From Actinomycetes bacterium (GTDB lineage Bacteria > Actinomycetota > Thermoleophilia > RBG-16-64-13), in the NCBI GenBank assembly GCA_024637035.1, contig JAGXFW010000022.1, positions 1-64,000 of the forward strand: a stretch of 64,000 nucleotides of DNA. The letters are read 5' to 3'. Below are positions 657-46,181 of the stretch, one piece after another. How positions within the stretch are numbered: the stretch's first letter is position 1; each line of letters starts with the position of its first letter. The notes under the pieces are model-generated. The model saw only the letters and a program-made list of their open reading frames with translations, did no database searches and was not told the DNA's origin. Both the position numbers and the translations under genes were made by a program.

Positions 657-2270
<1,614 letters not shown>

Positions 2271-2303
2271 AAAGCCCCGTCACTAGGCGGGGCTTTTCTT
2301 TTC
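2271..2303 (+). terminator. Intrinsic terminator of pckA
   Basis: Directly after the pckA stop, AAAGCCCCG pairs with CGGGGCTTT around an 8-base loop, followed by TTCTTTTC. This is a textbook rho-independent terminator. Confidence 0.9.
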
Positions 2304-2445
2304 GCCTCACGCACCACAACCGCATCATGGTCTTCGACGGGGAGCGAACGCGGATACACCTCCGCCGTTTCTGGCCGTGAACGCGCACAAGAGAACGCAA
2401 GCCTTCCCCGTTGGGGTGGAACCGTACCCCCGGCCATCCGTTACG

Positions 2446-2808
2446 TCAGGCCTTCTTTACCTCTTTGAATCTGATCCACCCTTTCTTTGCGACGTATCTC
2501 ATGAAGGCGACGATTCTTCTCACTGCCTCGTCGATATCGTCTCCCGTCGCTTCGCTCTGGATACGGGCGATATCCAAGATGCTTCGCGTCCCGTCCATAC
2601 TGAGCCACGTTGATGAGGAAAGCTCGTCCAGCTCGATATCCGAAACGGGCTCCCTGTTGACGAGCTTGCCCATCAGCCTCTTCACGGGATTGATCTCAAA
2701 GTCCAGAATGACTCTCGCTTCATCGGTTATTCTGAATCTCTGGTGGCGTATTTCCGGGACGTACAAGACGAAGTTGTACTTGTCCTTGCCGTGGTCTTGT
2801 TCGGTCAT
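2446..2808 (-). CDS. PqqD-like (RRE-fold) small protein
   Basis: 120 aa. The middle and C-terminal parts match the PqqD family pattern: a short strand region (RFRITDEARVILDF), then LSSSTWLSMDGTRSILDIARI, where a large hydrophobic/W position followed by D-G-x-x-(S/T)-I-x-x-I-A is the family signature, then a helix and the end segment FMRYVAKKGWIRF. PqqD-like domains bind leader peptides in RiPP pathways (RiPP recognition element), but many stand-alone members have unknown roles. It is the last gene of a pepD-OPT operon: its ATG overlaps the OPT stop by 4 bases (ATGA), which implies translational coupling. No RiPP precursor or maturase is adjacent. A role with the transporter is inference. Confidence 0.7.
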   Translation of the reverse strand: MTEQDHGKDKYNFVLYVPEIRHQRFRITDEARVILDFEINPVKRLMGKLVNREPVSDIELDELSSSTWLSMDGTRSILDIARIQSEATGDDIDEAVRRIVAFMRYVAKKGWIRFKEVKKA

Positions 2809-4742
2809 TTGGACTGAGCCTTGCGTGTGGAGTATACGTACAGGAACACTGCCAGCAACACGAACATGAAGAATGCCAACAGATTGCTTCCTGCAATCGT
2901 CGGGAACCAGTTGAGCCCAAAGGCGATATCCGCTTCAAGAGCAGCGAATATCCCCACGACGATGCCCATGAGCGCCCCTCCGGCTACGAGCCCCGAGGCA
3001 AGCAGTATGCCTTTGTCGACAGCCTCTTCATTACTTGTGCCCTTCGCTCGTCTCTCAACAAAATATCTGACGATGCCGCCGGCGAGCACTCCAGCGGTCA
3101 GGTTCATGGGAAGGTAGATTCCGAGTGCGACTGCGAGGATCGGGATGTCGACAAGGAGGCAGAAAAAAGCCAGCGCTACGCCCACAAGCACAAGCGTCCA
3201 CGGAAGCTGAGCCTCCATGATTCCTTGCACGATCATCTTCATGAGGGTTGCCTGAGGAGCGGGAACGGCTACGTCTCCGATCCCGTACGCCGAATTGAGC
3301 AGCATCAATGTCCCTGCCGCGGCGACGGATGCCACCGATAGGGCGACGAACATGCCGATCTGAACATTTCTGGGATTGCCACCTATGATGAAGGTCGTCT
3401 TGAGGCTTTGCGCCGTACCGCCCGCTACGGCAATGGCCACACAGATGACTCCGCCGACCATGAGCGCGGTTGTCATGCCGTCATCGCCGGTCTTCCCCAT
3501 GAGTTTGAGAACGGTGGTGACGATGAGGAGCGACGCGATGGTCATACCTGACACCGGGTTGTTGGATGCGCCGATCAAGCCGACCATCCTGCCAGACACA
3601 ACCGCGAAGAAGAAGCTGAATACCACGGCCATGAGACCGCCGACGGGGCCGCCACCGATGACGGGAACGAACCACGTCAAGAGGAAGCCCAGTACCGCCG
3701 CCCCGATAACCCATGTGAGAGGCGCTTCATGGTTCATCCTCGTCACCGTGCCGGTTTCGCCTGTGCCCATCCCCCCAGCGGCCTGCCTGAAGCTGCTGAC
3801 GATGGTGCGAAAAGACCTCACGATCGAAATGAAACCCCCGGCCGCGACGGCACCGGCCCCGACGTATCGGATGTAGTTTGACCAGACGTCGAATGCATCC
3901 ATCTCCGAGATCGGAACGGTAGAAGGGAAGACAGGATCTGCCATTCCCGCCCCAAAGAACTTCAGCAACGGGATCAGTCCGAGCCACGCGACGACAGAGC
4001 CGCCGAACATCAGTAGGGAGGTCTTGGTGCCCACGATGAACCCGACGCCCATGAGAGAGGCGACGGCATCCACGCCGATGATGGTTCCCTGATAGGGCTT
4101 TATCGTGTAGGAAGCATTCTCGCTCCAGAAGGCAAATCCACCGGAGAGCATCTTGAAAGCGCCCCCTACGCCCATGCCGATGAGCACCGTCCTGAACCCC
4201 CCTCCCCCTTCGGTCCCCGTGACAAGAACCTCCGCGGCGGCCATCGACTCGGGAAAGATGAGACTGCCGTGCTCCTCGACGATGAGGTATCTCCTCACCG
4301 GGGTTATGAAGAACACGCCCATCAGGCCGCCGATGATCGTGACGATGACGACCGTCGTGATACTCAGGCCAAAACCGAGGAGTAGTAGCGCGGGGAGAAC
4401 GAAGATGATGCCGCCGGCGAGAGACTCGCCCATCGCGGCCAGCGATGCCACCACGTTCGCTTCGAGGATGTTGTTCCTTCTGAACACTCCTCTTAGAAGA
4501 CCGATGGCGAGGATCGCACCGGGAATCCCCGCGGAGACCGTCATGCCTACCTTGAGGCCGAGGTACGTGTTCGCCGCGGCGAATACGAAGGCGAAGGCGA
4601 CGCCCATGATGATGGAATACCCGGTGATCTCGGGCATCGCCTCGGTGGTCGGGACATAGGGCACGTAGTCGCTTCCCGCACAACCGCCATACGCGTTCTC
4701 AGATAGCCCGGATTCCTTCTGGACTGGAGCTTTCTTGCTCAC
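2805..4742 (-). CDS. OPT-family oligopeptide transporter
   Basis: 645-aa integral membrane protein with about 14-16 hydrophobic segments. The N-terminus (PYVPTTEAMPEITGYSIIMG) followed by NTYLGLKVGMTVSAGIPGA is the hallmark of the OPT/YSL superfamily, which carries small peptides or metal chelates into the cell. The segment NNILEANVVASLAAMGESLAGG and the later NNPVSGMT are also family motifs. The GTG start has GGGGAGG at 6 bases and lies 15 bases after the pepD stop, so peptide uptake is paired with dipeptide cleavage. The downstream PqqD-like gene overlaps it by 4 bases. The exact substrate cannot be read from sequence. Confidence 0.9.
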   Translation of the reverse strand: MSKKAPVQKESGLSENAYGGCAGSDYVPYVPTTEAMPEITGYSIIMGVAFAFVFAAANTYLGLKVGMTVSAGIPGAILAIGLLRGVFRRNNILEANVVASLAAMGESLAGGIIFVLPALLLLGFGLSITTVVIVTIIGGLMGVFFITPVRRYLIVEEHGSLIFPESMAAAEVLVTGTEGGGGFRTVLIGMGVGGAFKMLSGGFAFWSENASYTIKPYQGTIIGVDAVASLMGVGFIVGTKTSLLMFGGSVVAWLGLIPLLKFFGAGMADPVFPSTVPISEMDAFDVWSNYIRYVGAGAVAAGGFISIVRSFRTIVSSFRQAAGGMGTGETGTVTRMNHEAPLTWVIGAAVLGFLLTWFVPVIGGGPVGGLMAVVFSFFFAVVSGRMVGLIGASNNPVSGMTIASLLIVTTVLKLMGKTGDDGMTTALMVGGVICVAIAVAGGTAQSLKTTFIIGGNPRNVQIGMFVALSVASVAAAGTLMLLNSAYGIGDVAVPAPQATLMKMIVQGIMEAQLPWTLVLVGVALAFFCLLVDIPILAVALGIYLPMNLTAGVLAGGIVRYFVERRAKGTSNEEAVDKGILLASGLVAGGALMGIVVGIFAALEADIAFGLNWFPTIAGSNLLAFFMFVLLAVFLYVYSTRKAQSK

Positions 4743-36231: not shown

Positions 36232-37377
36232 TCAGGACCCAGACTCCTCCCACTCCGCGAAGATCTTGTTCGCACCGCTCTCGCGGACGTGTAGGGCGTC
36301 GAAGAAGTCCTCCGCCGCTACCCCGGCGCGTTCCGGGTCGTACGACCCGAGCACTTGGATGTTCCGGGCGGCGGCCATGGATCGTAGGTAGTCCTCCACT
36401 TCTCCGCCAATGCGAAGATCCCGCTCGCGCAGGAAGTAGGAATACGTAGTCGGGTGGTAGGGGCCGAGGTAGATGACCACCGTGGTCTCCGAAGCCCTCA
36501 ATTGATCCACGAGATCCTCGAACTCAGCCTGCCGGTCGGGCTCTAATCGACCGACTTCATCGATCTTGTCGCGCCATTTCACCCCGTACTCGAGCGCCAT
36601 GCGATCCGTCTCTTCGGGCGACCGCAGGCGCATGGCCTGGTCGTACACAAGACTGCCGTCGGCGAGCTTCACCGGCACGTCCGATTCGGTCTCGTCGGTG
36701 GCGTAGTAGACGGAACGGGCCGGGGCAATGCCGGTCAGAGAACGGATCAATCGTCGCGACGACTCCTGGAAGTACGAAGGGGAAAGTGCCTGCGCGTATC
36801 GGCGCCACCTCTCCCAGCGATCCGTTCCACTACTGCTCGTATCTCGACCCGCGCGGGCCAGCATGAGGTCGCGTTCCGCCGAGAGCGTCTTCCACGCGGT
36901 GAGCGCGTCTGTCCTCTTCAGGTCCCACAAGTCCACACCCAAGACCACTACCTCGGGCGGCGGATCTGATTCCAGATACAGTTCGGCGATCGCTTCCAGA
37001 TCTTCCAGCGCGGCCTCGCTCACGCTGGCGTTGAAGAAGCGCCTGTCGCCGGCCACGTCGCTCCGGATCTGCATCGCCCGACTTGACCCCAACACGAGCA
37101 CCTGTGGGCTTTGTTCGAGTTCGGCGGTCAGGTAGCGTTGCACCAGCCGGTCATCGTGGTTCCCGATTGCGGCGACGTTCGCGCCCTCTGCTAGGAGCGT
37201 GGCGATGCCGCGCTCGTAAGTGGGCCCTCGGAACAGATTGGCGGGGTCCACTCCCACGGTGACGATGGAGACGGCCAACACGACGGGTAGCGCCCGCACG
37301 AGCACCCATCCGAGGAAACCGAATGGCCCGTCGACTCCTTCGCTCGTATCCCGCTTCGGCTTTCGGTACAGAGGCAT
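36232..37377 (-). CDS. SGNH/AlgJ-DltD-like membrane-anchored acyltransferase/esterase
   Basis: 381 aa. One N-terminal membrane helix (FLGWVLVRALPVVLAVSIVTVG), then an extracytoplasmic SGNH fold: VLVLGSSRAMQI (nucleophile Ser in block I GSS), VVLGVDLWDLK, VIYLGPYHP and the catalytic DALHVRESGANK (D-x-x-H) near the end. Such proteins act with MBOAT partners to O-acylate exported glycans (AlgJ/AlgI, DltD/DltB). Its start lies 10 bases downstream of the MBOAT stop on the same strand, which fits that pairing. Confidence 0.85.
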   Translation of the reverse strand: MPLYRKPKRDTSEGVDGPFGFLGWVLVRALPVVLAVSIVTVGVDPANLFRGPTYERGIATLLAEGANVAAIGNHDDRLVQRYLTAELEQSPQVLVLGSSRAMQIRSDVAGDRRFFNASVSEAALEDLEAIAELYLESDPPPEVVVLGVDLWDLKRTDALTAWKTLSAERDLMLARAGRDTSSSGTDRWERWRRYAQALSPSYFQESSRRLIRSLTGIAPARSVYYATDETESDVPVKLADGSLVYDQAMRLRSPEETDRMALEYGVKWRDKIDEVGRLEPDRQAEFEDLVDQLRASETTVVIYLGPYHPTTYSYFLRERDLRIGGEVEDYLRSMAAARNIQVLGSYDPERAGVAAEDFFDALHVRESGANKIFAEWEESGS

Positions 37378-37387
37378 ATGCCAACCC

Positions 37388-38914
37388 TCAGAACTGGAAG
37401 TAGAGGAAGGAGTTCTGTCCGAACGCTCCGACGAGAAGAATGGAGCCGACGAGTGCGTACATCGCGGCGGCCCGCTGCCAACCCGGGCGCGCGGACCAGA
37501 AGGACCCCCACTGTCCGCGCTCCTGCATGATCTCGGCGATCAGCACCCCGGTGAGCGACACCCCCAGCACCAGTCCGCTCTTCGCGGTCAGGCCCATGGT
37601 GGACAGCGTCCCGGCAAGCGCATCCAGACTGCTCAACTGGCCGGCGATCCCTGTCGCAACATGACCGAGGAGAAAGAACGCGTCGTCCAAGGTCGGAGCG
37701 CGGAAGAACACCCACGCCACCGAGGTAAGGGTGAACACCAGAACGGACCAGACGGGTCGCGGCAGTGATGGCAGAGTTCGCCGTCGCGCCCTCACACGAT
37801 CCGTGGCTCGAGACAGGTACATCTCCCCGATCAGGAAGCCGCCGTGCATGGCTCCCCAGAACGCGAAGGTCCAGGCGGCCCCGTGCCAGAGGCCCGAGAT
37901 CACGAACGTCGCGAGCACGTTGATAGCGTGGCGGGAGGGCCCGACCCGGTTGCCGCCCAGCGGGAAGTAGAGGTAGTCGCGGAACCAGGTGGACAGTGAG
38001 ATATGCCACCTGTGCCAGAATTCCCGGAAGCTTCGGGCGAAGTAGGGGCGGCGGAAGTTCTCCATGCCATCGAAGCCGAAGAGGCGGGCTGTCCCGTTCG
38101 CGATATCGGAGTATCCGGCGAAATCGAAGTAGATCTGGAGTGAGAAGCCGAACAGCGCCAGAAGAAGGGGGAGCCCCGTATGGGCGTTCAGGTCCCCGTA
38201 CACCTGGTTCACGAGGGGGGCGAGTCGGTCGGCGATCACCAGCTTCTTGAACAGGCCCACCGCCAGTTGATTCAGGCCTTCAGAGGCGCGGACTCGGTCG
38301 AACTGCCGCCCTTGTTCGATTTGCGCGAGAAGCGCATGGGGGCGTTCGATCGGTCCGGCGAAGATCTGGGGGAAGAAGGAGATGCTGAGTGCGTATCGAC
38401 CGAGATGCCGCTCCACTCGGGCAGGGTCGCGGGCGACCTCGATGAGGTAGCTCAGAGCTTTGAACGTGTAGAAGGATATCCCGAGCGGCAGCAGGAGCGT
38501 GTGCGACCGTTCGCCCAACGAAGCGAGCCCAGCCGCCGCGCTGGGCGCCACGCCCAACCAGTGCGCGGCGGAAGCCAGCGATCCGGTGACGAACCCTGTG
38601 TACTTGAAGAGCGCCAATGGCGCGAGTCCGACCGTGAGGGCGAGGGCGAGCGGCCATCGCATGGCCGCCGGGGCCTCGGGTAGCCCAGACGCGTCGGCGG
38701 TTCGCGCCCTCCCATGAGCCGCCAGAATCCTCCCCGAAGCGTAGGTCGTCAGCGTAACGAATACGAGCACCGGGAAGTAGGCGGGGCCGGTGGAGAGGTA
38801 GAGGAGGTATCCGGCCCCCAACAGCACCGGCCAGCGCCATCGCATGGGCAGCGCCCAGTAGAGCGCGAAGCTCGCAAAGAGAAAGAGGAGGAACGATGGA
38901 GACGTGAAGGTCAC
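37388..38914 (-). CDS. MBOAT-family O-acyltransferase
   Basis: 508 aa from GTG (VTFTSPSFLLFLFASFALYW), the usual family start; a longer open frame upstream is not family-like. AlgI/DltB motifs: FREFWHRWHISLSTWFRDYLYFPLGGNRVG and the catalytic His segment SGLWHGAAWTFAFWGAMHG. About ten membrane helices. It moves acyl groups from a cytoplasmic donor across the membrane for the SGNH partner to transfer to a polysaccharide, teichoic acid or glycolipid. The start lacks a clear Shine-Dalgarno. Confidence 0.9.
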   Translation of the reverse strand: MTFTSPSFLLFLFASFALYWALPMRWRWPVLLGAGYLLYLSTGPAYFPVLVFVTLTTYASGRILAAHGRARTADASGLPEAPAAMRWPLALALTVGLAPLALFKYTGFVTGSLASAAHWLGVAPSAAAGLASLGERSHTLLLPLGISFYTFKALSYLIEVARDPARVERHLGRYALSISFFPQIFAGPIERPHALLAQIEQGRQFDRVRASEGLNQLAVGLFKKLVIADRLAPLVNQVYGDLNAHTGLPLLLALFGFSLQIYFDFAGYSDIANGTARLFGFDGMENFRRPYFARSFREFWHRWHISLSTWFRDYLYFPLGGNRVGPSRHAINVLATFVISGLWHGAAWTFAFWGAMHGGFLIGEMYLSRATDRVRARRRTLPSLPRPVWSVLVFTLTSVAWVFFRAPTLDDAFFLLGHVATGIAGQLSSLDALAGTLSTMGLTAKSGLVLGVSLTGVLIAEIMQERGQWGSFWSARPGWQRAAAMYALVGSILLVGAFGQNSFLYFQF

Positions 38915-39169
38915 GATACGAACGGTGACGGAACACGAAGCGGGGGCAGGCACAGCCGTGGCGCGCGCGGCACCCGTCGGGCACAGATGGAGAGAACCCA
39001 GATCACCACAAGATCCCTCCACGCATGGGCGGCGACCGATGAGCGTCGCGGCGATGGTAGTACGGGAAGACCATGAATGGAAGTGGGCGTGGCTCGAGAG
39101 GAGCGCTGAGCGAGCGCGTCGCTACCGCCGCGACGCACCAATGCGTCGGAAGGAACTCTCCGGCATCTT

Positions 39170-39715
39170 CTAGTCCAGGAAGACGAAGCTCACCCGCACG
39201 AAACCGCCGTTGGCGCTCTTGCGCGCGACGCCGAGCCTATCAAGGGTCTCGAGGGTGTCGATGCCCGCCATCGCCGATTCGGGACGCAGGTCGGGCTTGT
39301 GTCTGCATTCCTCGTGGGGGTATCCGCACGCCTCGCACGTGTAGCATGGTGTGACGGCGACCGCGAGCGCGTAGTAGTGGCCGCGCGCGAACGCGGCGCG
39401 CTCGAATGCCAACGCCGCCGGGAAGAGCTCGCGGCCGTCCACTCCCGAGAGCACCGCGACCCGCTTGTACATGCCGAGCAGGGGGATGAGTTCCTCCGGA
39501 CCCCAGGCCTCGTCTCTGCAGGTCCAGCGACGGCCCCAGGCCGGGCATGAGTAGCGGCACTTGAGGATCGTACGAGGGTCGAAGACGATGGCCTCGATGG
39601 GGGTAAGTCGCCCCTCCACGCCGGTATCGGCCAGTCGGCCCTCCGCGTGGGTCAGAAGGTCGTCGAGGAACGGTTCCATGGCACTGGGCTCCGCGGTGAC
39701 GTCCTGGCCCGTCAT
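39170..39715 (-). CDS. DUF2284 metal-binding protein
   Basis: 181 aa. Cysteine-rich: KCRYSCPAWGRRWTC at about 53-67, VTPCYTCEACGYPHEECRHK at about 122-141, with RPESAM and the C-terminal GFVRVSFVFLD. This is the DUF2284 (COG5423 'predicted metal-binding') pattern, with cysteines suited to an Fe-S cluster or zinc. Its ATG lies 65 bases after the stop of the radical SAM fusion gene on the same strand, so a shared operon is likely. Function unknown. Confidence 0.88.
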   Translation of the reverse strand: MTGQDVTAEPSAMEPFLDDLLTHAEGRLADTGVEGRLTPIEAIVFDPRTILKCRYSCPAWGRRWTCRDEAWGPEELIPLLGMYKRVAVLSGVDGRELFPAALAFERAAFARGHYYALAVAVTPCYTCEACGYPHEECRHKPDLRPESAMAGIDTLETLDRLGVARKSANGGFVRVSFVFLD

Positions 39716-39780
39716 CGGGTGATCATCAGCATGCGGCCTCCCTTTCCTGTGCCCGGGTCACGCCCGGGCACCTAGAATCC

Positions 39781-41658
39781 TCATATGCAGTCGAACGGGA
39801 TCAGATCGACAGTCATCGCCGCGGGGTCGGGAGTCCATGGGGGTGACGCTGCCCCGAGGCGCTCCAGCACGGGGCGCACCAGTTCGCAGTAGGGGAACGG
39901 TGCGAGGTAGCCGGCGCGCTGGTCGGCCGCGGAAGCGGCGTAGTGCGCCTGCACCCAACACTCGCCGCCGCACGCGTCCACCACGGGGCAGCTTCGGCAC
40001 GTCTCTCGATCGCGGGCGTGGCCCGCTCGGAGCAGGTTCAGTGAGGGCGAGGTGCGCCAGATGTCTTCGAGGCTCTGTTCGCGCAGGTCGCCTGCGACGA
40101 AGCCCGCGTCGCCGCACGTGATCGGACACGCGTGCACCAAGCCCTCGGGATCGACTGCCAGCAGCGAGCAGCCGGCGTTGCACAGGTCTCGTGGCGCACC
40201 CAGTCTGCCTTTCCAAGCCGAGAGGTTGTCCACGGTGAGCCCGACCCGCTCCGCCGTCTCTTCCAGAGCCACGAACGCGGCGAGGAGCTCGTTGCCCGAG
40301 GGCACCATGTCGCCTCCCCGGGCGAGGCCCCCGCGCTGGTGGGGGAGGATCAGGTGGAGCGTCCTCACCCCGTCGTCTGCGATCGTCTGCGCCAGCTCGT
40401 TGAGACCGTCCAAGACCGGCCTCAGCAGCACCGTGTTCACGATCGGCCGAAGGCCCGCCCCGAGGAGGGCGCGGATCGAGGCACGGGCGTCGGCGAAGTT
40501 GCCGCGGCCGCGAAGGCCGTCGTTCGTCTCTTCGTTCCCGTCGATGCTGAGAAGCGGCACGAGCGACCCATTGCCTGCCGACGCCAGACGCGACGCCAGA
40601 TCGTCATCGATAGGCCTGTTGAAGAACAGGCGGGCCTTGGCGCCGTGTGTGCCCGTGATGTGCTCGATGAGCGTGAGCAGATCGGAGCGCAAGAAGGGGT
40701 CACCTCCGATGATGACGAACCCGGTGGCTCCGAGCGCCGCCGCTTGGTCGATCACGTCGATCCAGCCCGCGGTATCGAGCTCGCCTGCCCCCGCGACCGG
40801 ACCCGACGAACGGACGTCGCGCAGGTAGCACTGGGGGCAACCGGTATCGCACTCGTGGGTCACGTGCAGGTAGACTTCTTTCAGCCGGTCGAGGGCCCCA
40901 CCGCGCGCAGCGGGTGCCGCGGTCGCGGCGTCCTCGGTCTCGCTTGGCGGCCCGCCATGCCCTTGGGGAACGGTGCCGGCGGCAAACCCGGCTAGCAGGC
41001 GCAGATCCTCCTCGGTGTCCACGTCGAACCAGAGGGGGAGTTCGTGAAGCCGGAGTCCGAGTCTCGCCAGCTCGTCGCGCGTGTAGCGGGCGGCGCCGGG
41101 CGTCCCCAGGGGCGAGTCCTCAAGAAGAGCGGTGAGATCGGCGCGAGCCTGTCGCCAGGTGTCCGCGTTCGTGGCGATGAGGTAATACCCGCCGTCGAGG
41201 GTCGGGCCCAGTGCCACGTCCGGCCGGGACGCCGAGATGTCCGGAGAGCCGAGCAGGTCGAGCGCCTTCCGTAGGTAGGTCGCTGGAAGCTGCGGACTGT
41301 CCGATCCCACCAGTGCCACGACCCCGTGCCCCGCGGCGAAGAGGTCGGAGAACACGGCGGAGAGCCGGGTCCCCAGGCCTTCCCCGCGCTGCGCGATGAT
41401 GCGCCACCTATCGCCGAGGGGCGGCAGGTCCGCGGGGGTGAGGTCGTCTTGTTCCGACTCGAGGGCGAGGTAGAGGGCCACCTCGTCTCCCACGGATCCC
41501 GCCTGCAGGATCGTATCGCGCAGGAGAGCCGAGTAGGTCTCGGTGGCCGCGTGGGCACCGAGACTCTCGGCTAGGCGGCTCTTCACGCGACCCACCGTGG
41601 GTACACGTGCCATGACGGCCAGAGCCAGGTGCTCGCTGGTGTGGGGGCGGTGTTCCAC
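39781..41658 (-). CDS. Fusion: TIGR04282-type transferase + radical SAM/SPASM enzyme
   Basis: 625 aa. Residues about 10-225 form a GT-A-like transferase (LAVMARVPTVGRVKSRLAESLG, VVALVGSDSPQLPATYL, DVALGPTLDGGYYLIA, LPLWFDVDTEEDLRLL), the DUF2064/TIGR04282 'rSAM/selenodomain-associated' type. After a short linker, residues about 258-600 are radical SAM: HVTHECDTGCPQCYLR (C-x3-C-x2-C), FVIIGGDPFLR, LFFNRP, then a SPASM-type C-terminus with cysteines in DLCNAGCSLLAVDPEGLVHACPITCG and RETCRSCPVVDACGGECWVQ. GTG start. Divergent from a family-2 glycosyltransferase, and followed by DUF2284. One chain doing transfer and radical chemistry on the same product is implied. Confidence 0.88.
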   Translation of the reverse strand: MEHRPHTSEHLALAVMARVPTVGRVKSRLAESLGAHAATETYSALLRDTILQAGSVGDEVALYLALESEQDDLTPADLPPLGDRWRIIAQRGEGLGTRLSAVFSDLFAAGHGVVALVGSDSPQLPATYLRKALDLLGSPDISASRPDVALGPTLDGGYYLIATNADTWRQARADLTALLEDSPLGTPGAARYTRDELARLGLRLHELPLWFDVDTEEDLRLLAGFAAGTVPQGHGGPPSETEDAATAAPAARGGALDRLKEVYLHVTHECDTGCPQCYLRDVRSSGPVAGAGELDTAGWIDVIDQAAALGATGFVIIGGDPFLRSDLLTLIEHITGTHGAKARLFFNRPIDDDLASRLASAGNGSLVPLLSIDGNEETNDGLRGRGNFADARASIRALLGAGLRPIVNTVLLRPVLDGLNELAQTIADDGVRTLHLILPHQRGGLARGGDMVPSGNELLAAFVALEETAERVGLTVDNLSAWKGRLGAPRDLCNAGCSLLAVDPEGLVHACPITCGDAGFVAGDLREQSLEDIWRTSPSLNLLRAGHARDRETCRSCPVVDACGGECWVQAHYAASAADQRAGYLAPFPYCELVRPVLERLGAASPPWTPDPAAMTVDLIPFDCI

Positions 41659-41731: not shown

Positions 41732-43333
41732 GTGATCGGGGAACGGGGCGGCTGGATATCGAGAGATCAAGACGGTTGGCGGGTGCTCGTGAGGCAGTTC
41801 GCGATATTCCTATACGTTCTAAGCGCCACGGGCCTTGCGGTCTACGGACTGAACGGCCTGTATCTGGCGATGCGCCTGCTGCGCCCGCGCGCGCGGCGGC
41901 CCGCCGGCACCTCCACGTGCGACCAGATCGTCGAACGAGCACACACGGACGCCCCCCGTTTCACCGGGCACGACGCCGATCTCCCCACGATCACGGTACA
42001 GCTCCCCCTTTACAACGAGATGAACGTGGTGGAGCGCCTGCTCGGGAGCGTGCTCGCCCTCGACTACCCCGGTTCGCGACTCGTGGTGCAGGTGCTCGAT
42101 GATTCCAGCGACGCCACCACGGGCCTGGTCGAGCAGGTCCTGGGTCTCGTGGGGCCTCCACGCACGGAGAATCGTGCCGGGGCCCTCGTGAAGGAGTGGC
42201 ATCGGGACGACGGGCTCGTGGCGCAGCACGTGCGCCGCACCGACCGTCGCGGCTACAAGGCGGGGGCCCTCGCGTTCGGAATGGACATGAGCCGCAGCGA
42301 GGTCTACGCGATATTCGACGCCGACTTCGTGCCGGCGCCCGGTTTCCTGCGCGACATGGTGAGGCACCTTGACGATCCGACCGTCGGCTTCGTGCAGGCG
42401 CGCTGGGGGCACTTGAACCGGGAAGACTCCCTGCTCACCCGAGTGCAGGCCCTGGCGATGGACGCCCACTTCGCCGTCGAGCAGCAGGCTCGGTTCGCCT
42501 CGGGGTTCTTCTTCAACTTCAACGGGACCGCGGGCATCTGGCGTCGCTCGGCTATCGAGGGCGCGGGTGGGTGGCAGGCTCGCACGCTCACCGAAGACCT
42601 CGATCTCAGCTACCGGGCACAACTGGCCGGATGGCGAGGCGTGTACGACAGAGATGTCGTTGTGCCGGGCGAGGTCCCCCGCGACCTGAACGCCCTGAAG
42701 AACCAGCAGTTCCGGTGGGCGAAGGGCTCGCTGCAGACCGCCCGCCTGCTGCTGGGCCAGGTGGTTCGAGCGCCACTCCCGTTCCTCGTACGCCTTCAGT
42801 CTGTGATCCACCTGCTCGCCTATCTGGTCCACCCCATGCTGCTCGGGCTCCTGGTGGCGACGGCCATTCTCATCAGCGACTTCCCCATGTTGTTGGTGGT
42901 GTTCGGCGTGACGGCCCTGGTCGGGCTGAGCCCACCGTTCGTCGTGGCGCTGGGCCAGTGGTCGCTGCATCGCGATTGGCGTCGCCGTGTCGTGTTGATC
43001 CCCTTCCTCGTGGCGCTCGGTATGGGGGTGGCGGTCGTGAGTTCGCGGGCGGCGGTGGAGGCCTTCCTCGGTGTCGATTCGGGATTCGTGCGCACGCCGA
43101 AGGAGGGGAGTGGCCGCCGTCTTGCCGACTACCGTGCTCTGGTGGGAGTGGCGCCGGTGTTCGAGGTCGTCGCGTTGGTGACCGCGGTCTGGACCCTGAA
43201 CGCAGCCGCAGCCGCGGGCCGGTACACGGCCATGCCGTTCCTGGTGCTCTACGTGGCGGCCTTCGGCTACGTGGCCTTGGCGTCGGTGGCGATGGCCTTG
43301 AGGTCGGCGCTCGGAGCGACGAGCACCGAGTAG
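41732..43333 (+). CDS. Cellulose-synthase-like family-2 glycosyltransferase
   Basis: 533 aa from a GTG with GGGAG about 10 bases upstream; the start is uncertain (GTG at 41783 is an alternative). One N-terminal helix (QFAIFLYVLSATGLAVYGLNGLYL), a GT-A catalytic domain with TVQLPLYNEMNVVERLL, VYAIFDADFVPAPGF (DxD), LTEDLDLSYRAQLAGW (ED) and the processive motif QQFRWAKGSLQ (Q-x-x-R-W), then about five C-terminal membrane helices. It is like bacterial beta-mannan or glucan synthases. Its 3' end overlaps the converging mannosyltransferase gene by 67 bases. Confidence 0.88.
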   Translation: MIGERGGWISRDQDGWRVLVRQFAIFLYVLSATGLAVYGLNGLYLAMRLLRPRARRPAGTSTCDQIVERAHTDAPRFTGHDADLPTITVQLPLYNEMNVVERLLGSVLALDYPGSRLVVQVLDDSSDATTGLVEQVLGLVGPPRTENRAGALVKEWHRDDGLVAQHVRRTDRRGYKAGALAFGMDMSRSEVYAIFDADFVPAPGFLRDMVRHLDDPTVGFVQARWGHLNREDSLLTRVQALAMDAHFAVEQQARFASGFFFNFNGTAGIWRRSAIEGAGGWQARTLTEDLDLSYRAQLAGWRGVYDRDVVVPGEVPRDLNALKNQQFRWAKGSLQTARLLLGQVVRAPLPFLVRLQSVIHLLAYLVHPMLLGLLVATAILISDFPMLLVVFGVTALVGLSPPFVVALGQWSLHRDWRRRVVLIPFLVALGMGVAVVSSRAAVEAFLGVDSGFVRTPKEGSGRRLADYRALVGVAPVFEVVALVTAVWTLNAAAAAGRYTAMPFLVLYVAAFGYVALASVAMALRSALGATSTE

Positions 43334-44517
43334 GAGAGCAGGCGGGCCCATAGGCGTTGGCGGAGCGGCCCCCCGGCATACGTGGCGTAGGAGGCCGGTG
43401 CCGCCAACCCGAGGAAGATGGGTAGGCGCACTCCCGCGAGCGACCCCAGGGCCACCGCCGTGACCCAATACCAGGGGTGTACGACGGGGAGGAGCAACAC
43501 GAACAGCGTGGCCGTGACGGCGAAGGCGTGCATCGTACCGGCCCGGCCGCTTCGCCGCCGCGCCAGGATCACGGCGAGGATCACGAACGCCGCGACCACC
43601 ACGATCCGTGCGGTCGAATAGGGGAGGACGAAGCGAAGCAGGTAGAACACCGACGAGTGGAACTCGGGGGTGGTGCCGGTCTCGGTGATCGATCCGAGCG
43701 CCGCGCCGGTCAACAGATAGGGCACGTAGGGCAGGCCGAAGCCGACCGCGAACCCGCCGAGGAGGGGGAGAGGCCGCGCTCGATTCCCAACCAAGGCCGG
43801 TATCAGCAGGAAGCCCGGGTAGAACTTGAAGGCCGCCCCCAGCCCGAGGGCCAGTCCGGCCCGCAGGTCGGAACCCCGCACGATCAGCAGTGCGGCCGCC
43901 ACCACCAGCAGGGTCGGCGCCGCGTCGAGGTGGGCCGAACTCCAGGTCTCCTGAGCCACCATGGGGTGAAGCAGGTAGAGGGCGAGCGCTTCCTTTCTCC
44001 GTCGACCGGCTGCCGTCCAGATGAGCAGGGCTACGCCGAGGTCGAAGAGTCCGAACACCACCTTCAGACCCGCGGCCGAAGCCACGCCCGCTCGCGCCAT
44101 CCCGTAGAACAGGAGTTCGGAGAGCGGCGGATAGATGGTGCGGTACTCGGGATGGTTGATGAGCCCGCGCTCCGGGTAGTCGACCGCATCGAGTGCCGCC
44201 GACGAAGGCGCGTGCAGATAGGGATTGATACCCTCTGTCTGAACGGCGCCGTCCCAGATGTAGCGGTGGTAGTCGTCGGAGAGGCTCGGTTCCCCGGGGA
44301 AGAGCAGGAGGCGGAGCAGCAGCCCCGCGGCGACGATGGCAGTCGTGGGGAGAGCGGTCAGGCCGCTCAGAGCCAGCAGGTACCCCGCGGCGGCGCCGGC
44401 GTAGAGGAGAAGGTACGCGTACGTGTGCGCCCGCAGGTCGCCGGTGAAGAGCATGCCGGCGCAGGTCGCCACGAGGAGGACGATACCGAGGTAGGCGCGT
44501 GAGCGAGCAGAGAGCAC
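43267..44517 (-). CDS. GT87-like polyprenol-phosphate mannosyltransferase
   Basis: 416 aa, ten or more membrane helices. The first extracytoplasmic loop carries EPSLSDDYHRYIWDGAVQTEGINPYLHAP, with the acidic pair of GT-C enzymes, followed by INHPEYRTIYPPLSELLF. KVVFGLFDLGVALLI and LAAALLIVRGSDLRAGLALGLGAAFKFYPGFLLIPAL match the DUF2029/GT87 group that uses polyprenyl-phosphate-mannose (MptA/B relatives). GTG start. Overlaps convergently with the family-2 glycosyltransferase. Divergent by 30 bases from the other glycosyltransferase. Confidence 0.85.
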   Translation of the reverse strand: MLSARSRAYLGIVLLVATCAGMLFTGDLRAHTYAYLLLYAGAAAGYLLALSGLTALPTTAIVAAGLLLRLLLFPGEPSLSDDYHRYIWDGAVQTEGINPYLHAPSSAALDAVDYPERGLINHPEYRTIYPPLSELLFYGMARAGVASAAGLKVVFGLFDLGVALLIWTAAGRRRKEALALYLLHPMVAQETWSSAHLDAAPTLLVVAAALLIVRGSDLRAGLALGLGAAFKFYPGFLLIPALVGNRARPLPLLGGFAVGFGLPYVPYLLTGAALGSITETGTTPEFHSSVFYLLRFVLPYSTARIVVVAAFVILAVILARRRSGRAGTMHAFAVTATLFVLLLPVVHPWYWVTAVALGSLAGVRLPIFLGLAAPASYATYAGGPLRQRLWARLLSYSVLVAPSADLKAIATDAKAT

Positions 44518-44546: not shown

Positions 44547-45437
44547 ATGGCAGCCCCGGGAGCGGCGGGTTCGGGCGCGGCCGACACCCGCATGGAGGCC
44601 GACGCCATGGCCGATCCGCACGCGGCCGCCGGACGCGCGGGCACCGATCGGAGATCCCGCGGCGCCCGGCGCACCGGCGGAGACTGGCGCATCGTGCTTC
44701 CAGTACTGAACGAGGCGGCGGCGCTGCCCGCCCTGCTGCGCGAGCTGGCTGCGACCCCCGATCTGCTTCGGCGGGCCGTGTTCGTGGACAACGGTTCTTC
44801 CGACGGCAGCGCCGCTCTGATCACCGCCGCGGGCGGCACCGTGGTCTTCGAGGCCAAGCGTGGCTATGGTCTTGCCTGCCTCGCTGGTGTGGCCGCCGCC
44901 GCGGCACAGATGGAAGCGGAGGCGGATCGCGGAGGCGAGACCGAGGAGGGCCTTGGCGGCGTGCGCGCGATCGTGTTCATGGAGGCCGACGGCAGTGACG
45001 ATCCCTGGGATCTGCCCCGTTTGGTCGGCCCCGTGCTTTCCGGGGACGTCGACCTGCTCGTGGGCTCTCGGCGGCGTGCGGTTGCGGGAGCCGCTCGCAT
45101 GGCGGCGCATCAGCGCCTAGGCAATGTAGCGGCTGTCGCCGGCATGCGCCTGCTGTTCGGGATCGATCTTCCGGACAACGGTCCCTTTCGGGCGGTGCGC
45201 GCCGACCTGCTTGAAGAGTTGCAGATGGAGCCGCGCGGCTACGCGTGGACTACCGAGATGGTGGTGAAGGCGAGCCTGCGAGGCGCCCGCATCTCCTGGA
45301 TCGACACGTCGTTCCGCCCCCGGGCGGGCGACTCGAAGATCTCGGGCACCGTCCGCGGCACCGTCGGCGCGTTCAATGGCATCTTCGGCACCCTTCTGCG
45401 GCTGAGGCTCCGCCCGCCGCCGAACTCCGCGAACTGA
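44547..45437 (+). CDS. Family-2 glycosyltransferase (dolichyl-phosphate-mannose synthase-like)
   Basis: 296 aa from this ATG; alternatives at 44593 and 44605 are possible because the first 50 residues are low-complexity. Catalytic domain: WRIVLPVLNEAAALPALLRELA, VFVDNGSSDGSAAL, AIVFMEADGSDDPWDLPRL (metal-binding acidic cluster), VDLLVGSRR, and the end RPRAGDSKISGTVRGTVGAFNGIFGTLLRL. No C-terminal membrane helix. It would make a polyprenyl-phosphate sugar for the GT87 neighbour or add a sugar directly; the same context favours mannose (inference). Confidence 0.82.
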   Translation: MAAPGAAGSGAADTRMEADAMADPHAAAGRAGTDRRSRGARRTGGDWRIVLPVLNEAAALPALLRELAATPDLLRRAVFVDNGSSDGSAALITAAGGTVVFEAKRGYGLACLAGVAAAAAQMEAEADRGGETEEGLGGVRAIVFMEADGSDDPWDLPRLVGPVLSGDVDLLVGSRRRAVAGAARMAAHQRLGNVAAVAGMRLLFGIDLPDNGPFRAVRADLLEELQMEPRGYAWTTEMVVKASLRGARISWIDTSFRPRAGDSKISGTVRGTVGAFNGIFGTLLRLRLRPPPNSAN

Positions 45438-45539: not shown

Positions 45540-46022
45540 TCAGTACAGAGGCAGCTTCGGATGCGGCGAGCGCCGGGCCAGGATCGCGTCGGCCCCGAGG
45601 GTGCGCCCTGCCCGCGTGACGCCCACGGCGGCGAGAACGGCCATCATGATCAGGTACGTGCCGGGCCATTCGCCCGTGCCGTAGGAGGCGAGCAGGAGGT
45701 TCACCGTGAAGCCTCCCGCCACCAGGGCGGAGACCGGGGTGAGGAACCCCACGATCAGGAACACTCCCATGATCAGAAATTCTGTCACCACCTGGAAGTA
45801 GCGGAAGAGGTCGGCGTTGGGGATGACGACCGACTTCAGGAAGTCGCCATAGAAGGTGATCGAGGTGCCATCGGCCCACTCCTGGATGAAGGGTACGAAG
45901 CCGTCCGAGTAGAGTCCCTTGGATAGGTTGCTCACCCACGTGGTCAAGAAGATGAGGCCCATGAAGGCGCGCAGGAACGCCATGGCCGTATCGGATCCGC
46001 GTTCTGTCGGCGTTCCGTTCAT
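45540..46022 (-). CDS. DoxX-family membrane protein
   Basis: 160 aa from ATG (GGGGAG 6 bases before). Four helices: TAMAFLRAFMGLIFLTTWV, a loop, VVTEFLIMGVFLIVGFLTPV, SALVAGGFTVNLLLASYGTG and TYLIMMAVLAAVGVTRAGRTLG. The R-x-x-x-G-x-x-F-x-x-x-x-x-x-K first helix and GFLTPVSALVAG are DoxX features (quinone-related or unknown roles, often thiosulfate or membrane redox). Convergent with the glycosyltransferase by about 100 bases. Confidence 0.8.
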   Translation of the reverse strand: MNGTPTERGSDTAMAFLRAFMGLIFLTTWVSNLSKGLYSDGFVPFIQEWADGTSITFYGDFLKSVVIPNADLFRYFQVVTEFLIMGVFLIVGFLTPVSALVAGGFTVNLLLASYGTGEWPGTYLIMMAVLAAVGVTRAGRTLGADAILARRSPHPKLPLY

Positions 46023-46181
46023 CGTCAGCTCCCCTTGTCGGATGCTCTCACCGCAGTGGCATCGGTCGGTGGATGTCTCGTGAAAGGGGGATACCCGCGC
46101 CGGATCGACTCGACACTCACTCACGGGTCCGGGGCGAAATCACCCCAGACGCTGGTAGCGGGTGCCCTGCCCTCGTATGAT

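Follow-up and report, generated by a model that had tools for sequence, protein, structure and literature searches.

Of the 119 prokaryotic selenoprotein families in a 2026 inventory, two are radical SAM enzymes, TIGR04167 and TrsS (PMC13188914). TIGR04167, also called ArsS, creates a C-As bond through adenosylation (PMC12159101), and radical SAM enzymes that form C-As bonds are known in arsenosugar and arsinothricin biosynthesis (PMC12159101).

Here we describe a gene in a stretch of 64,000 nucleotides (the window) that encodes a TIGR04282 transferase joined to a radical SAM/SPASM enzyme. The family is absent from the 119-family inventory (PMC13188914), and in a full-text literature search, 0 papers of the collection searched mentioned all three of selenoprotein, radical SAM and SPASM. 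The components are of known kinds, namely a radical SAM/SPASM enzyme, a TIGR04282 transferase and a C-terminal Sec tail. Their combination is apparently a radical SAM selenoprotein architecture that has not been described so far.

The fusion gene and its domains

An initial annotation of the window had placed a TIGR04282 domain and a radical SAM/SPASM domain in one chain. This was borne out, as positions 39784-41658 (minus strand) form a single open frame with no internal stops or frameshifts. The gene and its domains are as follows.

39772 to 41658, minus strand: full predicted coding sequence with the TGA read through, 628 aa, ending ...IPFDCI-U-G-F before a TAG stop; the read-through is kept in 16/16 homologues
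40966 to 41658, minus strand: DUF2064/TIGR04282 (CofC-like nucleotidyltransferase) domain, from profiles, residue alignment and fold match
39883 to 40886, minus strand: radical SAM and SPASM domains, from Pfam/profile matches and invariant cysteines

The domain search proposed in the initial annotation identified DUF2064 (residues 59-169, 2.9e-21), Radical_SAM (266-421, 6.5e-9) and SPASM (493-558, 3.7e-9) with Pfam, and the profiles TIGR04282 and TIGR04085 were both matched. For TIGR04282 the outcome was borderline, with 130.4 bits in the protein scan and 133.7 bits in the genome scan, where the fusion was counted as over the cut-off of 134; the homologue in genome G034 scored 138 bits.

The fusion was recovered at three levels (genome contig scan, family and class) and is present in 16/399 genomes of the class, with homologues sharing 45-83% identity with the window protein. 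The named records are Thermoleophilia MAGs. Both domains share one gap-free frame in 13 fusion genomes; the frame in G054 is interrupted by a run of N, and the fusions in G069 and G074 end at contig ends. The domain joint (residues ~227-257) is a linker without conservation, and neither a hidden frameshift or stop at this joint nor confinement to one genome, both raised as concerns in the initial annotation, was found. The fusions also form a clade with support 100/99 in a tree that includes long branches. Since the fusion recurs in other genomes, in one frame and as a supported clade, it is old and retained, and an assembly artefact is excluded.

The N-terminal domain keeps the catalytic motifs K26/R28, D120-P122, G151-P152, D155-G-G-x-Y and D212/D214. 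K26, R28, D120, P122, D155-G-G, D212 and D214 are invariant in the fusions and also present in three standalone TIGR04282 members. The fold matched 3cgx and, more weakly, the 3-phosphoglycerate guanylyltransferase 7p97, from which we infer a probable nucleotidyltransferase activity.

In the radical SAM half, the CxxxCxxC motif (C270-x3-C274-x2-C277) is invariant among the fusions, and so are eight cysteines of the SPASM region (C493, C497, C511, C554, C557, C563, C567 and C591). In SPASM enzymes, such a cysteine set corresponds to two auxiliary Fe-S clusters. Two auxiliary clusters are therefore expected in addition to one SAM cluster, and the auxiliary clusters that the initial annotation had read from the SPASM cysteines are supported by a set that is complete and invariant.

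The C-terminal tail and its UGA codon

Downstream of C591 comes a linker whose length and sequence vary, and the open frame then closes with an invariant F-D-C-I. Conservation is 0.54 across the linker, but 1.00 for the last four residues. The elements around the end of the open frame are listed below.

39784 to 39795, minus strand: F-D-C-I codons, invariant, directly before the TGA; ATA is the Ile codon in 14/16
39781 to 39783, minus strand: TGA, predicted Sec626, followed by GGA-TTC-TAG (39772-39780)
39749 to 39771, minus strand: predicted bSECIS hairpin GTGCCCGGG-CGTGA-CCCGGGCAC with GU in the apical loop, which lies 18 nt past the UGA; energy -18.7 kcal/mol

ATA accounts for ~8% of Ile codons in the window's genome, yet it precedes the UGA in 14/16 fusion genes. 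The retention of this rare codon suggests a constraint at the nucleotide level, either as a base of the SECIS element or as UGA context. A coding pattern continues past the TGA in all 16 fusions, which read FDCI-TGA-GGN, then a Tyr, Phe or Gln codon (TAC, TTC or CAG) or nothing, and then a stop. The Gly codon after the TGA varies synonymously at its third base. In two related enzymes that lack the TIGR04282 fusion, a cysteine stands at the TGA position (F-H-C-N-C-A-L in G621, F-H-C-A-C-V-L in G400).

Published rules for bSECIS elements specify a loop of 3-9 nt, a stem of 4-16 bp, a G in loop positions 1-2, a spacing of 16-37 nt and an MFE <= -7.5 (PMC13188914). The hairpins of 16/16 fusions agreed with all four rules, with energies of -9.2 to -18.7 kcal/mol and a spacing of 17-19 nt. 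The hairpins have stems of 5-9 bp and loops of 4-5 nt in which G is followed by U (16/16). Among 373 control genes ending in TGA, which were ORFs picked by length from two fusion genomes rather than curated genes, 43 satisfied the loose rules and 5 had a hairpin of <= -10 kcal/mol at 16-20 nt; 0/373 had, in addition, a stop within four codons. Compensatory changes, with both sides altered and pairing kept, were found in 5/7 inner stem pairs. The pairs were counted hairpin by hairpin, since aligning the hairpin by itself with MAFFT gave wrong pairings in some rows. The sequence after the hairpin contains no T-run, and an intrinsic terminator is therefore unlikely.

The window's genome encodes SelA and SelB, which exceed their cut-offs with 549 and 337 bits, and a tRNA-SeC(tca) with anticodon UCA. 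A tRNA-SeC(tca) was also found in the deeply branching fusion genome G016, in the ~30% of that genome examined. A crude motif scan of ~0.46 Mb of the window's genome revealed no selD.

Taken from these sequence features, the fusion is almost certainly a selenoprotein ending in PFDC-I-Sec-G-F, with a coding sequence of 39772-41658. The initial annotation, which had given 39781-41658, thus had the right frame, but the chain almost certainly runs past the first TGA to 39772. It is very improbable that the TGA is an ordinary stop, with FDCI merely a conserved C-terminus and the hairpin a transcription terminator: TGA stops are common and many genes are trailed by hairpins, but this hairpin is without a T-run and its loop position and G-U do not vary, all 16 genes keep a coding pattern past the TGA, there are homologues with Cys, and the genome has Sec machinery. 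In an AlphaFold model (8 sequences, mean pLDDT 70.5) the tail was of low confidence and its position was left undefined.

Two other candidate recoding sites were inspected. An in-frame TGA at locus L005 was rejected, as it apparently arose from reading past the stop of a different radical SAM gene and nothing comparable follows it. On contig C5 of the window's genome (locus L128, 15043-15138, minus strand), Rfam PYLIS_3, the mttB pyrrolysine element, matched within an mttB-family gene; the frame has no in-frame TAG.

Relatives and gene neighbourhood

Searching with a profile for the radical SAM half gave 197-208 bits for three non-fusion relatives from the same phylum, and <=119 bits for everything else. 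In G400, the radical SAM gene overlaps a neighbouring, separate TIGR04282 gene. The operon order there is C-GCAxxG-C-C protein, TIGR04283, radical SAM and TIGR04282, with flippase-like and VTT-like genes further upstream. A plasmid search with the G400 enzyme gave 0 matches. In G621 and G675, the radical SAM/SPASM enzyme is fused to an arsenite methyltransferase (ArsM) domain that retains the CC, GCG, NC and SC cysteines of ArsM.

L074, 8332 to 10461, and L103, 3626 to 5671, both minus strand: ArsM-like/radical SAM/SPASM fusions in two distant genomes

The architecture of the L074 protein is covered by 0 NCBIfam models over cut-off. In G621, TIGR04283 and C-GCAxxG genes adjoin the ArsM-radical SAM gene. 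A standalone TIGR04282 gene of this genome follows a thioredoxin-reductase-like gene (L123, 5328-6962), distant from the ArsM-radical SAM gene. In a tree without long-branch rows, the fusions, the ArsM-fused enzymes and the G400 enzyme form one clade (100/99); when long-branch sequences are included, the node that connects the fusions with the ArsM-fused enzymes loses resolution.

A separate observation concerns the tRNA-Sec of G675 (RF01852, 57 bits; L103, 1584-1672, plus strand), which has the anticodon GCA instead of UCA. It is directly followed by selB (1703-3616, plus strand), and the ArsM-radical SAM gene adjoins. Some bacteria reportedly read UGC/UGU as Sec by means of tRNAs of this kind (PMC8124441). 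The G675 enzyme ends in YNCT-TGA, where TGT and TGA are both suitably spaced from the hairpin, and Sec could be inserted at the TGT instead of the TGA.

The genes around the fusion in the window are listed below; counts refer to the 14 fusion loci with enough flanking sequence.

39173 to 39715, minus strand: DUF2284 Cys-rich metal-binding protein, downstream; conserved just in the window's genus
41750 to 43330, plus strand: cellulose-synthase-like GT2; beside the fusion in the window's genus only
43270 to 44517, minus strand: GT87-like polyprenyl-phosphate-dependent membrane glycosyltransferase; beside 9/14 fusions
44631 to 45434, plus strand: AglJ-like GT2 (polyprenyl-P-hexose synthase-like); with GT87 beside the same 9/14 fusions
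45543 to 46124, minus strand: DoxX/DoxD-like membrane protein; beside 11/14 fusions

The DUF2284 gene, the two GT2 genes and the GT87 gene are arranged as the initial annotation had described. The genome-context survey it called for identified DoxX and either the GT2/GT87 pair or TIGR04283 as conserved. DUF2284 proved not to be a conserved partner, as it adjoins the fusion solely in the window's genus (2 genomes). The DUF2284 gene is followed by genes for an MBOAT acyltransferase (DltB-like) and a companion without Pfam match (36235-39022, minus strand), as is typical of loci for the O-acetylation of polysaccharides.

Nine of the 14 loci carry the GT2/GT87 pair; TIGR04283 adjoins the fusion in 3 and lies elsewhere in the genome for the remaining 2. 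With TIGR04283 counted over cut-off, each of the 14 genomes therefore has one or the other, and the two seem to replace each other (AglJ-like GT2 and GT87 at L007-L011, L014 and L053; TIGR04283 at L051, L052, L054, L049 and L050).

TIGR04282 occurs in 15 fusion genomes, solely as the fusion, and as a separate gene in the genomes of all three other relatives, so that it is present wherever this radical SAM family is encoded at a complete locus. It was found in 0/16 relatives without the radical SAM family. This pattern, together with the separate overlapping genes in G400, supports the earlier suggestion that both activities serve one pathway. TIGR04283 was over cut-off in 5/16 fusion genomes, G400 and G621, and in 0/16 genomes without the fusion, and ArsS (TIGR04167) exceeded its cut-off of 300 in 0/35 genomes. 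ArsM is present in 14/16 fusion genomes versus 10/16 genomes without the fusion. Its co-occurrence is not discriminating, and we dropped it as proof of an arsenic role.

Possible functions and comparison with known systems

We consider it possible, with slightly less than an even chance, that the fusion acts in the biosynthesis of organoarsenicals of arsenosugar-like type, standing in for the missing ArsS. This is backed by the ArsM-radical SAM/SPASM fusions in G621 and G675 with their retained ArsM cysteines, by the clade that, in the tree without long branches, unites the fusion with the ArsM-fused enzymes and G400, by the G400 operon, by the TIGR04282 linkage and by the absence of ArsS. Arsenic genes directly adjoining the fusion itself were not found at the fusion loci. 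The "arsenosugar" names of TIGR04282 and TIGR04283 are presumably based on gene neighbourhood.

The fusion, the SECIS element and the Sec machinery are backed directly by sequence and genome data. The protein is thus almost certainly a selenoenzyme: a CofC-like nucleotidyltransferase precedes a radical SAM/SPASM part, for which two auxiliary Fe-S clusters are expected, and the chain closes with a presumably mobile Cys-x-Sec-Gly tail, its Sec inserted at the UGA by the bSECIS hairpin, SelA, SelB and tRNA-Sec. The Cys/Sec tail might bind trivalent methylated arsenic from ArsM, or reduce the arsenic product. It would pass arsenic on to the site of radical SAM chemistry, and there the 5'-deoxyadenosyl radical may form or modify a C-As adduct, and the nucleotidyltransferase domain would then activate a sugar-like product for the neighbouring glycosyltransferases. 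This complete explanation, a selenoprotein with an organoarsenical role, has in our judgement about an even chance of being right. A more specific proposal is possible but somewhat unlikely: C-As bonds may be made by radical SAM/SPASM selenoenzymes of a second lineage distinct from ArsS, whose C-terminal Cys-x-Sec arm binds (methyl)As(III) and offers it to the radical in cis, and which have become fused either to the upstream ArsM or, in other bacteria, to the downstream TIGR04282.

The conserved sugar-transfer genes beside the fusion mean that the unusual sugar or glycolipid product suggested in the initial annotation could still be correct. The Sec tail and the link to arsenic are both absent from that annotation. 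The same selenoprotein might act on a sugar nucleotide or polyprenyl-linked glycan, with TIGR04282 making an NDP-sugar-like substrate, the radical SAM enzyme altering it, AglJ-like GT2/GT87 or TIGR04283 transferring it, and the Cys-Sec tail serving as a redox relay. The GT2/GT87 pair beside 9/14 fusions, the TIGR04283 genes (adjacent in 3 genomes, elsewhere in the other 2) and the presence of BlsE, an enzyme working on a nucleoside sugar, among the fold matches of the fusion agree with such a role. We nevertheless regard it as rather unlikely, as it explains neither the ArsM fusions nor why some genomes can manage with TIGR04283 alone.

A peptide or peptide-derived redox cofactor, as for the mycofactocin or PQQ maturases, is a quite unlikely substrate of the selenoprotein. 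MftC, StsB and PqqE are the best radical SAM profile matches, and the invariant F-D-C-x-U tail after a variable linker could perhaps be a peptide substrate in cis. However, the scores are far under cut-off (MftC 103 versus 265 bits), the conserved neighbours showed no precursor peptide, MftC is present as another gene in the window's genome and falls in a different clade, and the Cys/Sec exchange in the tail is easier to reconcile with a redox or metalloid-binding role than with a substrate core.

Returning to the organoarsenical role, the alternation of ArsM and TIGR04282 as fusion partners provides a testable hypothesis for the function of the poorly understood "radical SAM/selenodomain-associated" transferases in organisms without ArsS. 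Standard annotation would truncate the gene at its predicted catalytic tail, and part of the active chemistry would therefore be hidden in databases.

Among known systems, the TIGR04282 family (DUF2064, CofC-like) shares with the fusion all conserved motifs of the N-terminal domain and the fold of 3cgx; the differences are the joined radical SAM/SPASM enzyme and a score at or just under the curated cut-off. MftC (TIGR03962, mycofactocin radical SAM maturase) is the best full-length radical SAM/SPASM profile match, from which the fusion is set apart by its low score, its distinct clade and the genome's own MftC gene. NF041536 and NF041537 (arsenite methyltransferase/DUF2284 and ArsM/AhpD selenoproteins) likewise combine arsenic methylation with Sec/Cys redox modules, and DUF2284 lies beside the window fusion, but their domain partners are different and DUF2284 beside the fusion is confined to one genus. 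TrsS (NF045646) is also a radical SAM enzyme with selenocysteine; however, the L014 fusion scored 42 bits, with the cut-off set at 490, and a TIGR04282 domain is not recorded for TrsS in the 119-family inventory. ArsS (TIGR04167) resembles the present enzyme in its radical SAM domain, in the Cys/Sec motif of some of its members and in its association with TIGR04282 and TIGR04283, whereas the enzyme described here has the cysteines for SPASM auxiliary clusters, differs in its C-terminus (CxUG) and is fused to a TIGR04282 domain.
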